Source of the DNA: a cyanobacterium endosymbiont of Epithemia clementina EcSB
GTDB lineage: Bacteria > Cyanobacteriota > Cyanobacteriia > Cyanobacteriales > Microcystaceae
Length of the DNA stretch: 64,000 nucleotides
NCBI RefSeq assembly: GCF_029919255.1
Contig: NZ_CP123991.1
Coordinates: 2,705,833-2,769,832, forward strand
Reading direction: 5' to 3'
Part shown: positions 19,166 through 23,035 of the stretch, one piece after another
How positions within the stretch are numbered: position 1 is the first letter of the stretch
Layout of the letters: each line of letters begins with the position of its first letter
Made by a program: the position numbers and the translations under genes
The notes under the pieces: model-generated
What the model saw: only the letters and a program-made list of their open reading frames with translations
Told to the model about the DNA's origin: nothing
Database searches by the model: none

Positions 19166-21163
19166 TTAGAAGGAAAAAGTACCTCGAAGGGTTCCAACGA
19201 CCTCACCGTCAGATCCTTGCATATTCACAAATTGCTCAGGCTTGGAGATCCAAATCACACCAGGAGTTAGAGAAATGTTGTCTGTAACCTGATAGCGATA
19301 GAATACTTCAACTGTTATAGGGTTTTGCAAAGGTAATTCGTAATACCCAGCAGTGGTGGGACGATCACTATCACCCTGATAAGGTTGAACCCCAGCAAAT
19401 ACACCTAATAAGTTACCCTCTTTGAACAAATCAGGAAAGGCGAAGCCACCGCCACCGGTCCAAAGTTCACCACTCATACCACGACCAAGATAGCGAACGT
19501 TGTGGAATGAACCAAACGCACTGAAGTTAACCCACTCGTAAGGCCGCCAGGTCCCAGCAACACCGTAACTGTTGGTGACTTTACCACCCCAGTCAAAAGG
19601 ATTAACTTCCAACCCATCTAGAGAGTTACGTCCACTTCCATTAAAGGAGCTAGTGCTAGTTCCTGGATCTCCTACGCTTCCACCAGCAAAAGCATTATTC
19701 AGAGTAGAACGTGAACCGTTAGCAATGGAAGTACCAACAATTCCAGGACCCTTGTTAATGCCTTCACCGAAGATAGGGCTGTCGGGTTTGTGGTAAGCGT
19801 GAACATAGGTGAAACCAATGTTTACACTGTCAAAAATATTGGTATTGATCTGAGCTAAAGCACCGTAGTTACCATTGAATAGACCGTTACCACCATCACT
19901 TTCAGCGTAGGGTTTGCCGGTCACAGGGTTAGTACTTTTGCCACTGTTACATTTACTGCCACCATCACCATTCACACAAGGACTGTTGGGGGTTCCTGCT
20001 AAATAACCGAAGCTGATAGATGTGGGACCGAGAACGTTATCTAACCAGTCAAGCTGAACACTCGCACCAGCACCAGCACCACCCCCAATTCGGTAAATGG
20101 GGTTACGTTGAGAAAAGGTACTTAAAGAACCTTTACCACCGTCGAAATCCTCGAAGAAGGGGTTCAAAGTAGGGACGAAGTCATACCACTTACCACCCCA
20201 AGCAGATACGTAGGTATCAACCTTGAAGTTATTGAAGATTTCGATTGGAGCGTAGTAACCAACCCAGTCAATGACAACGTCATTGTCTTCTTCATTCCGC
20301 CGTGGCCCAATGTTAAAGGTTTGGGTGGCAGTAGGATTGATGACGGTATTCTCCTCAAGAGAAATCCCGATAGGTTGACCTGTATCGGGGTTAATCACCC
20401 GTAGATCAGGCTGGTTCATAGTAAAACGATTACTTCCAGTTCCCGTACTAGCAGATAAACGAGTTACTAAAAGGTCTTCTCCACTGAAACTACTGTTGAA
20501 GCTTAAGCGAACTCTATCTTGTAGAACAGCTTGGTTATCCTCGGATGAACGGCTACCACCTGCTCCAGTAACAGCGAAAATGACCTCCCCAACCAATTTT
20601 GTGGTAGTGGAAAATTGATGATCTTCTAAGAAAGCTACCCGTCCCTCTAAGTTATCGACCCGTGCGCCTAAAGCAGCAAGTTCTGCTTCAAATTCCTGCA
20701 TTAACCGCTTGAGTTTATCGATATCTTCCCGCAGAACCGCGACGTTTTCTTGAATTAAACGCTCCATGGTGTTTAGACAAGCGTTCAACCCCGCAGCAAA
20801 TTCCCAACGAGAGGTAGCACGGTTACCTCTGAAAGTACGGTCAGGATAACCAACAATACAACCATAACGTTCAACTAAACTACGAAGAGCTTCATAAGCC
20901 CAGTCAGTAGGAGACACATCACGCAGTTCGCTAACACTAGTTACTTGTTGGTTAGTTTCTACTCCATCCTCGCCGCTATAAGTTTCTAATTGTTCGATCA
21001 ACTGAGATTGCTTAAGTTGAGCAATCTCAGAACCTATAGTCTCGTTCTGAGAAACTCCAGCCTGTAACTTGGTTTCGGCTGCCGTTGCAGCGGGTGAGAC
21101 GGCTAAAGCCATTCCCAACAGGGCTGGACTAACTAACAATGATTTCCAAAATGGTCTAAGCAT
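19166..21163 (-). CDS. SLH-domain OprB-type porin
   Basis: This is a major outer-membrane porin of the cyanobacterial Som/iron-uptake-porin type. The 665-residue product has an N-terminal signal peptide (cleavage likely near AVSPAATAAE). An SLH domain follows (DVSPTDWAYEALRSLVERYG, ~83-150), which binds peptidoglycan-linked polymer. Next come a coiled coil (~140-185) and a C-terminal OprB beta-barrel ending in aromatic F (GTFSF). Length is normal. It has its own promoter upstream and a strong terminator. Solutes passing through such porins include sugars and inorganic ions; a role in exchange with a host is my inference. The gene is intact and well maintained. Confidence 0.9.
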   Translation of the reverse strand: MLRPFWKSLLVSPALLGMALAVSPAATAAETKLQAGVSQNETIGSEIAQLKQSQLIEQLETYSGEDGVETNQQVTSVSELRDVSPTDWAYEALRSLVERYGCIVGYPDRTFRGNRATSRWEFAAGLNACLNTMERLIQENVAVLREDIDKLKRLMQEFEAELAALGARVDNLEGRVAFLEDHQFSTTTKLVGEVIFAVTGAGGSRSSEDNQAVLQDRVRLSFNSSFSGEDLLVTRLSASTGTGSNRFTMNQPDLRVINPDTGQPIGISLEENTVINPTATQTFNIGPRRNEEDNDVVIDWVGYYAPIEIFNNFKVDTYVSAWGGKWYDFVPTLNPFFEDFDGGKGSLSTFSQRNPIYRIGGGAGAGASVQLDWLDNVLGPTSISFGYLAGTPNSPCVNGDGGSKCNSGKSTNPVTGKPYAESDGGNGLFNGNYGALAQINTNIFDSVNIGFTYVHAYHKPDSPIFGEGINKGPGIVGTSIANGSRSTLNNAFAGGSVGDPGTSTSSFNGSGRNSLDGLEVNPFDWGGKVTNSYGVAGTWRPYEWVNFSAFGSFHNVRYLGRGMSGELWTGGGGFAFPDLFKEGNLLGVFAGVQPYQGDSDRPTTAGYYELPLQNPITVEVFYRYQVTDNISLTPGVIWISKPEQFVNMQGSDGEVVGTLRGTFSF

Positions 21164-21337: not shown

Positions 21338-21389
21338 AACCCCAGCCAGTTCTGCTCACTTGTGTGAAAGAGTAAAACTAGCTGGGGTT
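21338..21389 (-). terminator. strong terminator of the structured small transcript
   Basis: AACCCCAGC (21338-21346) pairs with GCTGGGGTT (21381-21389), and the stem extends inward through AGTT/AACT and TGCTC/GAGTA. On the minus strand it is followed by ttttaactttcttt. It ends transcription from the element at 21408-21560 and lies upstream of the porin promoter. Confidence 0.75.
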
Positions 21390-21407
21390 ATTGGGGTTAT
21401 TTTAGAG

Positions 21408-21560
21408 GGGGTCTTCTGATCGAAACCTAACTGCCGGAAGGAAAACTAGCAACAGTACTAGAACTGACTACTAGAGAGCAGCTCCGGCGCACAGCTGGCT
21501 TACTTCGATCAGGAGACCCATACTTTCACTAATGTCTGTCATGGGCATCACCTCCCTTAT
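21408..21560 (-). ncRNA. candidate structured RNA / small-peptide transcript
   Basis: On the minus strand a 15-bp helix with one mismatch closes ~112 nt: GGGTCTCCTGATCGA (21519-21505) with TCGATCAGAAGACCC (21423-21409). Inside, GCCGGA (21488-21483 region) pairs with TCCGGC (21438-21433). A second helix, CCCAT/ATGGG, would compete for the closing strand. The segment is clearly more GC-rich than its surroundings and ends at the strong terminator. It also overlaps a short frame with an excellent ribosome-binding site (listed separately). I do not recognise an RNA family; SRP RNA, tmRNA, RNase P RNA and cobalamin riboswitch were considered and not supported. Confidence 0.55.
21471..21542 (-). CDS. 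possible 23-residue peptide within the structured transcript
   Basis: A short frame begins MTDISESMG at 21542 and ends LCAGAAL followed by two consecutive TAG stops. It is preceded by ggaggtgat, a near-perfect complement of the 16S rRNA 3' end, eight bases from the ATG. Such a strong site in AT-rich DNA is striking. The peptide could be a leader peptide whose translation switches the RNA helices, or a small expressed protein. The codons overlap the closing helix of the RNA structure, so the coding signal may be fortuitous. No family was recognised. Confidence 0.4.
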   Translation of the reverse strand: MTDISESMGLLIEVSQLCAGAAL

Positions 21561-21598
21561 TGCCTAAATGGTTTATCTCAAAATATATGTAACTGCAT

Positions 21599-23035
21599 TT
21601 AGTTTAGCTTACTTGACCTCAAAAAATCAAGACAGTGACCTAAAAATTTTCTAAGAAACTCAGAATGTCCACCAAAATGAAGATGAATATAGGAAGCATG
21701 AAGTTGATGTATTTTCCATCCTTCTTTCTCTCTAAGTGAATTAGATTGCCAGTCTTGTACAGAAAATAGGGGATTTTTAGATATAAAAGTTAAGTGTGAA
21801 CGGTGAAATTCGTGTCCCCAAATTGTTTGTCCGATGGTCAACAAAGGACCATCTTGGAGAGCAGTGGCTTGACGATAACCTAAGTTCAGATTTTTTCTCA
21901 TTATAGCTGTGGTTGGTAGTATTCCCACCATTGGCCATTTTTGAGCTTGAAAATCAATGATTTGCTGACAAAGATACATTAACCCCCCACATTCGGCATA
22001 AGTAGGAATTTGACTGACAATCGCAGCTTTTACCGCTTCTCGTACCCGATAATTCCTTGAAAGATCTTGAGCAAACATTTCAGGAAACCCTCCCCCGAAA
22101 TAGAGACCATGAATATCTTTAGGTAAGTTTTCATCCTCTAAAGGGCTCCAGGGAATAAGCTTTGCGCCCAAGGTTTGTAAGATATCTAGATTGTCTTGAT
22201 AGTAAAAACTGAAAGCGTTATCGCTAGCTATGGCAATCTTTATGGGAGAGGAATGAATAAGAGGATGAACGGGTGAGGGGGTAAGAGAATCAAGAGGTGA
22301 GGGGGTGAGTAATGGGAAGAGATACTGCCAATTAAAAGCGGTTTGAGCCAGGTTGGCAAGTTGTCGAAATAAAGACTCTAAGTGAGTCATTTCGGTGGTC
22401 GGGATTAAACCGAGGTGTCGAGTAGGAATTGTTAGAGAATCTTTACGGTGTAAGGTTCCTAGAATAGGGATATTAAGGGTATCTAGAGACTGTTGGAGTA
22501 GGTGAAGGTGGCGATTGCTACCGACCCTATTTAAAATAACTCCTACTAAATTAATATGAGGATCAAGAGAACTATAACCGTGGGTGATCGCCGCTACTGA
22601 CCCCGACAAATGAGAACAATCAATCACAAGAACCACAGGAATGTTTAAAAGTCGAGCAATATGGGCCGTACTTCCATAATCTAGTGAGCTTATTTTCTCA
22701 GACGTTTTTATGGTTGCTCCCTTAAGCCTTGTGCTATCTGCCCTTTTATAGGGAATACCGTCAAATAACCCCATTAGCCCTTCGACTAAAGCATATTCAA
22801 CCCCTTGACAGTGTTTAGTAAAACATAATTGAACATAAGTTTCAGAAGTTAGAATTGGGTCTAAATTACGACAGGGACGGCCAGTAATAGCAGAGTGAAA
22901 CATTGGGTCAATATAATCAGGCCCTACTTTAAACGATTGTACTCGGTGTTTTTGGGATGCTAAAAAAGCAAGTAGTGCTAGGGTAACCGTTGTTTTCCCT
23001 ACGCCACTGCGATCGCCTGCAATCATTAATGCCAC
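21599..23035 (-). CDS. cbiA: cobyrinate a,c-diamide synthase
   Basis: CbiA amidates the a and c side chains of cobyrinate during B12 synthesis, using ATP and glutamine. The 478-residue protein has an N-terminal dethiobiotin-synthetase-like domain with P-loop GDRSGVGKTT (residues ~7-16) and KVGPDYIDP. A C-terminal class-I glutamine amidotransferase domain follows, with the nucleophile in YAECGGLMYL and the catalytic histidine region HQLHASYIHLHFGG. The start is GTG. A proline/serine-rich linker near residues 245-270 (SPLDSLTPSPVHPLIHSS) is made of short repeats and lengthens the inter-domain connection. No other cob gene is nearby. It appears functional. Confidence 0.92.
   Translation of the reverse strand: MALMIAGDRSGVGKTTVTLALLAFLASQKHRVQSFKVGPDYIDPMFHSAITGRPCRNLDPILTSETYVQLCFTKHCQGVEYALVEGLMGLFDGIPYKRADSTRLKGATIKTSEKISSLDYGSTAHIARLLNIPVVLVIDCSHLSGSVAAITHGYSSLDPHINLVGVILNRVGSNRHLHLLQQSLDTLNIPILGTLHRKDSLTIPTRHLGLIPTTEMTHLESLFRQLANLAQTAFNWQYLFPLLTPSPLDSLTPSPVHPLIHSSPIKIAIASDNAFSFYYQDNLDILQTLGAKLIPWSPLEDENLPKDIHGLYFGGGFPEMFAQDLSRNYRVREAVKAAIVSQIPTYAECGGLMYLCQQIIDFQAQKWPMVGILPTTAIMRKNLNLGYRQATALQDGPLLTIGQTIWGHEFHRSHLTFISKNPLFSVQDWQSNSLREKEGWKIHQLHASYIHLHFGGHSEFLRKFLGHCLDFLRSSKLN
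22245..22318 (-). repeat. imperfect tandem repeat in the cbiA linker
   Basis: On the + strand, units of the type gaggtgagggggt and gaggatgaacgggtgaggg recur with gaatcaa/gaatgaa spacers. It encodes the Pro/Ser linker between the two CbiA domains. Repeats of this sort are mobile in related cyanobacteria. Confidence 0.55.

Follow-up and report, generated by a model that had tools for sequence, protein, structure and literature searches.

A conserved, rod-forming RNA with a 23-codon open reading frame downstream of cobB in the cyanobacterial endosymbiont of Epithemia clementina

Here we characterized a short minus-strand locus within a 64,000-nucleotide stretch of DNA (the window) from the cyanobacterial endosymbiont of Epithemia clementina EcSB. 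By its features, rather than by sequence comparison, the locus is very probably the local homolog of the abundant free-standing RNA published as Sye_sRNA1 and ncl0160. The RNA is real, conserved, and in all likelihood functional. Our preferred reading, put forward tentatively, is that it is an independent RNA, both structured and translated, whose rod frees the start codon of a tiny open reading frame (ORF) and is opened by translation, with the RNA constrained more than the peptide. The family itself is already reported, as abundant transcripts; what is new is the covariation at scale, the diverged homologs in a family designated f34, and the comparison of constraint on RNA and peptide.

Layout and pairing of the locus

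Read 5' to 3' on the minus strand, positions 21338–21560 contain a Shine-Dalgarno sequence, a 23-codon ORF, a rod, and a terminator-like hairpin. The extended Shine-Dalgarno GGGAGGTGAT (21556–21547), recognized from the sequence and the 16S 3' end, precedes the ORF MTDISESMGLLIEVSQLCAGAAL (21542–21471), which runs from an ATG at 21542 to a TAG and is directly followed by a second TAG (21470–21468). A sequence-only reading of the window had described just such a Shine-Dalgarno and 23-codon frame with a double stop. The rod, defined by folding and covariation, occupies 21519–21409 and consists of H1 (21519–21514/21414–21409), H2 (21512–21504/21424–21416), H3, which has one bulge (21499–21493/21432–21425), and H4 (21488–21482/21439–21433), with the second half of the ORF as its 5' arm. 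H4 is the inner GCCGGA/TCCGGC helix of the earlier reading, found here as GCCGGAG/TTCCGGC. The 15-bp closing helix of that reading is also present, although it is really 6 bp, one mismatch, and 9 bp (21519–21504 with 21409–21424).

For the first bases of the rod's 5' arm there are two alternative partners, the 3' strand of the rod downstream or the region around the start codon upstream. In the second arrangement, CCCATG (21545–21540) and TATGGG (21522–21517) would form an alternative minus-strand hairpin (21545–21517) that would hide the start codon. The GGG is common to both structures, so that the CCCAT/ATGGG helix and the closing helix are mutually exclusive, as had been proposed.

Downstream of the rod, AACCCCAGCTAGTTTTACTC and GAGCAGAACTGGCTGGGGTT are predicted to form a terminator-like hairpin with a stem of 19 pairs and a 12-nt loop, followed by an imperfect T-tract (21389–21338, minus strand). 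Of the strong terminator claimed from the sequence, the long stem holds, but the U-tract is imperfect and a simple terminator scan (loops of 3–8) reported none at the locus. A hairpin of this type lies downstream in 94 of 100 homologs, compared with 74 of 300 shuffled controls that preserve base composition only, and in the predicted fold it has no strand in common with the rod. At the other end, a putative minus-strand promoter (21630–21601) was recognized by eye and is absent from the consensus promoter scan; it consists of TTGATT (21630–21625), an 18-nt spacer, and TAAACT (21606–21601), and would place the transcript start near 21594. This putative promoter sits inside the last codons of cobB. 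In Synechocystis 6803, according to passages of PMC6091082, the cobB frame even continues into the sRNA.

Stability of folding does not by itself identify the strand, because the plus strand is also well folded (z = −3.85, against z = −4.76 for the minus strand, where none of 200 shuffles was as stable). The minus strand was assigned because the Shine-Dalgarno and ORF are conserved in relatives.

Pairing in the rod was evaluated in two alignments. The first, A1, holds 24 rows from 30 loci of the endosymbiont's family, after removal of the near-duplicates L013, L014, L017, L028, L030, and L031. The second, A2, draws on 100 of 168 loci, leaving out duplicates, 6S loci, loci set aside, and others beyond 100; the last 15 of its 115 rows were dropped, of which 14 lie antisense to the RNA within loci already represented and one (L024:1023–1106) is from elsewhere. 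These 100 homologs are a non-random sample, with 13 already in A1, and counts on them omit L091 and L094, which are true matches with a Shine-Dalgarno, start codon, and rod. L091 (1501–1748) has an enlarged rod tip, giving 248 bases instead of about 160.

In A1, 96.5% of rod cells are paired and 7 of 29 pairs have changed on both sides, with slid pairings reaching at most 51.7%. Across the 100 homologs, 95.3% of 2828 cells are paired (at most 49.5% in slid pairings and 86.3% in 200 shuffles), in an alignment to a covariance model that was built on the rod structure and favors it. Double changes occur in 24 of the 29 pairs and total 307 cells, compared with 77.5 on average and at most 109 in the 200 shuffles; these folding statistics use related sequences, and their p-values overstate certainty. 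All of the structured elements that had been proposed for the minus strand are present, and conservation and covariation place the observation beyond chance. The covariation search in other cyanobacterial genomes that the earlier reading had suggested is answered by the compensatory changes in these 24 pairs.

Distribution among cyanobacteria and neighboring genes

Blastn with a 241-base query found homologs in 45 of 50 genomes of the endosymbiont's family, and a covariance model from 24 sequences found them in 177 of 195 genomes of its order and 291 of 388 genomes of its class, the last two samples overlapping. Conservation in related genomes, on which the sequence-only reading had made its case depend, is borne out by these counts. 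The class count includes G507, whose locus L103 was judged a chance match (as was L108), and G382, whose locus L102 is degenerate and without the inner rod. Nearly always, there was one match per genome in the order and class searches. G284, the genome of L106 and L291, carries a second copy at C1:2023818–2024006, 72% identical to the first and about 5 kb from it.

In the phylum sample, 45 of 117 genomes match the covariance model, and the sole match outside the class (G623, C14:104399–104473) is weak (E 2.5e-5) and perhaps due to chance. The model finds little in family f34, which we guess to be the marine Prochlorococcus/Synechococcus clade; there, blastn with a diverged homolog matches 72 of 121 genomes, a count that includes the genome of the query. 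Among named genomes, scanning by pattern gave at least 118 stretches, and the genome names of the 80 listed are presumably all cyanobacterial. Distant blastn found no match in phages and plasmids with homolog L054, or in phages with an f34 homolog.

The five family genomes without a blastn match are G002 and G003 (1.4–1.5 Mb), G014 (85% complete), G016 (79% complete), and G032; the four that were retested with the covariance model (G002, G003, G014, and G032) likewise gave no match. A smaller search with laxer filters did not find the RNA in G002, G003, G184, G248, or G266, all at least 99% complete, and these are possible losses. Within the window's genus, the RNA has been retained in all four genomes of 2.5–3.1 Mb (G000, G037, G040, and G041); the other three genomes of the genus are 4.6–5.2 Mb. 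This retention, together with the compensatory changes and the conserved tiny ORF, supports in kind the original suggestion of a regulatory RNA or small protein.

In the window, the locus lies between cobB, encoding cobyrinate a,c-diamide synthase (21599–23035, minus strand), upstream and an OprB/SomB-type porin gene (19166–21163, minus strand) downstream. Gene names here come from Pfam and NCBIfam profile matches to the neighbors' products. In all 30 family loci examined, the window included, cobB is upstream. Across the 100 loci, the upstream gene is psbD in 29, where the psbD fragment covers part of the psbD model and falls below the Pfam and NCBIfam whole-protein cut-offs, cobB in 21, and neither in 50. 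On the same strand downstream, there is a porin in 38 loci, a pterin dehydratase in 24, and either in 51; neither was seen in the remaining 49, some of them short. Eight loci (L064, L065, L072, L133, L153, L123, L113, and L093) have a same-strand porin without cobB or psbD upstream, and the downstream link may be older. We consider the RNA an independent gene because its upstream neighbor varies and its terminator-like hairpin recurs in the homologs; variable, partly kept neighbors and an own terminator fit such a gene.

The short frame and access to its start codon

A start codon lies 13–15 bases from the start of GGAGG in all 100 homologs (ATG in 98 and GTG in 2), and all have a stop after 16–34 codons (TAG in 49, TAA in 46, and TGA in 5). 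The ORF has 23 codons in 73 homologs, 24 in 14, and 17 in 8, with one homolog each at 16, 25, 26, 27, and 34 codons, so that 88 fall within 23–25. A GGGTC element was found in 99 rows, and in 97 of them it keeps one and the same reading phase to the start, which would somewhat favor the peptide. Nine homologs stop early, at 16–17 codons, and lack the common C-terminus; TGTTCT is still present after the early stop in three of them (L082, L087, and L098, all of family f58), which would fit constraint on the RNA, and is not kept in the other six, which counts against it. In L150, a small change shifts the frame and extends it to 34 codons, which speaks against strict conservation of peptide or stop. 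All 30 f34 homologs fetched encode another peptide, of 17 codons and with a TGA stop. A frame that remains short and closed although the position of its stop shifts suggests a role for translation.

To judge from the alignments, the peptide looks less constrained than the RNA. In the 73 rows with a 23-codon ORF, the coding permutation test is weak, the frame 0 score being reached by 37 of 500 column permutations over the whole ORF, by 104 of 500 over codons 2–9, and by 51 of 500 over codons 10–23. Several codons change non-conservatively along with the helix, and by eye codons 2, 7, 10, 11, 13, and 14 show non-conservative changes in these rows; codon 4 is AGT in 65 of the 73 and codon 5 in 69. 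The other two frames (+1 and +2) have lower scores than frame 0, and in codons 17–23 the third positions are more variable (0.66 bits) than the first and second (0.37 and 0.35), both of which would fit selection on the peptide. The ORF ends in RLCAGAVL in 32 of 100 homologs and in AGAVL in 57. Three versions of the peptide had no match in NCBIfam. The peptide conservation that the sequence-only reading had asked about is thus present as a short, closed frame in all 100 homologs, but the peptide sequence looks less constrained than the RNA.

Within the Shine-Dalgarno, the 9-nt GGAGGTGAT is complementary to the 16S 3' end CTGGATCACCTCCTTA. When scored against the window genome's 16S tail, which was used for all homologs in place of their own, 89 of 100 have at least 9 contiguous complementary bases, and up to 13. 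In the window genome, GGAGGTGAT is followed by ATG within 2–10 nt at four places. Those outside the locus are at C1:766681, 2189764, and 2418476 of G000.

The hairpin that would hide the start codon is plausible, with little covariation. Taken with a GGA/TCC extension on the Shine-Dalgarno side, it has 97.2% of cells paired and zero double changes in the 24 sequences. In the 100 homologs, 90.3% are paired, with 3 double-change cells, values matched by 1 and 3 of 200 shuffles, respectively. The extension is poorly kept, one of its pairs being present in 44 of 100 homologs. Five homologs have an altered shared GGG: L080 and the weak match L104 change all three strands together, L099 keeps the rod and not the hairpin, L096 keeps two of three rod pairs and has no hairpin, and in L088 the hairpin is broken. 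A further candidate hairpin within the ORF, CCGGC/GCCGG, is 94.2% paired across the 24 sequences but shows no double change; it was uninformative and was set aside.

In predicted ensembles, the start codon has an unpaired probability of 0.38 in the full RNA, compared with 0.16 when the RNA is cut at the stop and 0.17 when its 3' part is shuffled with base composition alone preserved. Relative to the cut RNA, 62 of 100 homologs show an increase in opening of more than 0.1 and 10 a decrease; relative to the shuffled RNA, 60 show an increase and 6 a decrease. The Shine-Dalgarno changes less (0.41 in the full, 0.36 in the cut, and 0.32 in the shuffled RNA), opening in 33 homologs and closing in 19 when compared with the cut RNA.

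Relation to known RNAs and candidate functions

Rfam 15 gave zero matches at or above gathering in the whole window, and relaxed thresholds gave only below-gathering matches in the window stretch and 10 homologous loci. The initial impression that no family matches therefore stands for Rfam but not for the literature, where the features match Sye_sRNA1 and ncl0160. The 6S RNA (RF00013), which is also folded and of similar length, has no match at the locus; the genome's one 6S match is at a separate site (C1:1082408–1082591), and 6S RNA was detected in all 13 genomes searched.

In the relevant passages of PMC6091082, Sye_sRNA1 of Synechococcus elongatus UTEX 2973 is about 200 nt long, with a ~200-nt Northern band, and outranks every other sRNA in abundance under two conditions; its 53 homologs have a conserved structure and lie mostly downstream of psbD or cobB. 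Compared by description, it resembles the locus RNA in size, conserved secondary structure, and position, and it differs in that the passages of PMC6091082 on peptides and ORFs mention none for it. In passages of PMC4734099, ncl0160 of Synechocystis 6803 has a 23–25 aa ORF with a ribosome binding site and uses all three stop codons. A survey of 89 genomes, which left out the marine Prochlorococcus/Synechococcus lineage, counted 83 homologs, and ncl0160 was judged likely translated, with RNAcode run on the alignments (same passages of PMC4734099). Again by description, the locus RNA has the same kind of ORF and ribosome binding site; covariation and RNA-level constraint, studied here, are absent from those passages on ncl0160. 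The locus in the window combines the published traits, with cobB upstream, a 23-codon ORF preceded by a ribosome binding site, and a covarying rod, a conserved secondary structure that may be the published one. From such features, we infer that Sye_sRNA1 and ncl0160 are one family. The passages of PMC6091082 and PMC4734099 give no function for either, and no functional study appeared in the literature searched, which lies mostly outside subscription journals; sequence strings of the RNA were not found in the literature text searched. Table 2 of PMC5126843 begins at 26 aa, so that a 23-aa ORF could not appear there.

According to our preferred reading, the RNA would span about 200–250 nt, run from a promoter to a terminator of its own, and hold the very short ORF inside. 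Formation of the rod would free the start codon, and a 30S subunit would then bind via the extended Shine-Dalgarno. In translating the 5' arm, the ribosome would open the rod until its departure at the stop. The RNA would in this way switch between two forms, one folded and one bound by a ribosome. Both steps, opening of the start by the rod and of the rod by translation, are suggested by the predicted unpaired probabilities and the 16S complementarity. The functional product would be the folded rod, whose internal loop is conserved; the rod may act in trans, and the peptide would be mostly a by-product. A related reading, which we regard as fairly unlikely, is that translation of its own tiny ORF gates the fold of this class-wide RNA; the act of translation, and not the peptide, would set whether this RNA, among the most abundant small RNAs in cyanobacteria, takes its active rod form, and the RNA would report ribosome activity.

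The signals in the ORF could also reflect a small mRNA, with a 16–25 aa peptide as its product and the rod controlling translation or stability. This is somewhat unlikely. The start and stop shared by all 100 homologs, the kept reading phase, the shared ORF endings, the variable third positions of codons 17–23, and the likely translation of ncl0160 in the passages of PMC4734099 agree with it, but the whole-ORF permutation test is weak, nine homologs lack the common C-terminus, the f34 peptide is different, and NCBIfam does not match any of the three peptide versions. SgrS/SgrT and RNAIII are dual-function sRNAs with a short ORF within a structured RNA, and the locus RNA differs from them in that the ORF itself is the rod arm. 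A strict dual function, in which peptide and base-pairing RNA both act as in SgrS/SgrT, is improbable here, even with peptide-type and RNA-type signals both present.

The ribosome sponge, an abundant RNA whose extended Shine-Dalgarno occupies 30S subunits, would account for the long 16S complementarity, for the rarity of GGAGGTGAT with ATG in the genome, and for the abundance of homologs reported in passages of PMC6091082. It would leave the covarying rod and the kept stop unexplained, and we consider it very unlikely. We have equally little faith in a cis leader or read-through cassette (an "actuaton" in passages of PMC5386190) serving the downstream porin or pterin dehydratase; one or the other gene follows in about half of the loci though the upstream gene differs, but the hairpin is separate in 94 of 100 and neither gene was seen in the other loci, some of them short. 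The same evidence lends weak support to the leader-peptide attenuator ahead of the porin that the sequence had first suggested: the porin or pterin dehydratase link speaks for it, but in the predicted fold the terminator is separate from the rod, and the downstream gene varies, leaving neither a terminator–antiterminator alternative nor one cis-regulated gene.

The RNA is mostly single-copy and occurs in most of the cyanobacteria examined, publications describe its apparent homologs as highly abundant, and it has no match in Rfam. The alignment and covariance model provide a working definition of the family, with which the choice between RNA and peptide becomes a testable question.
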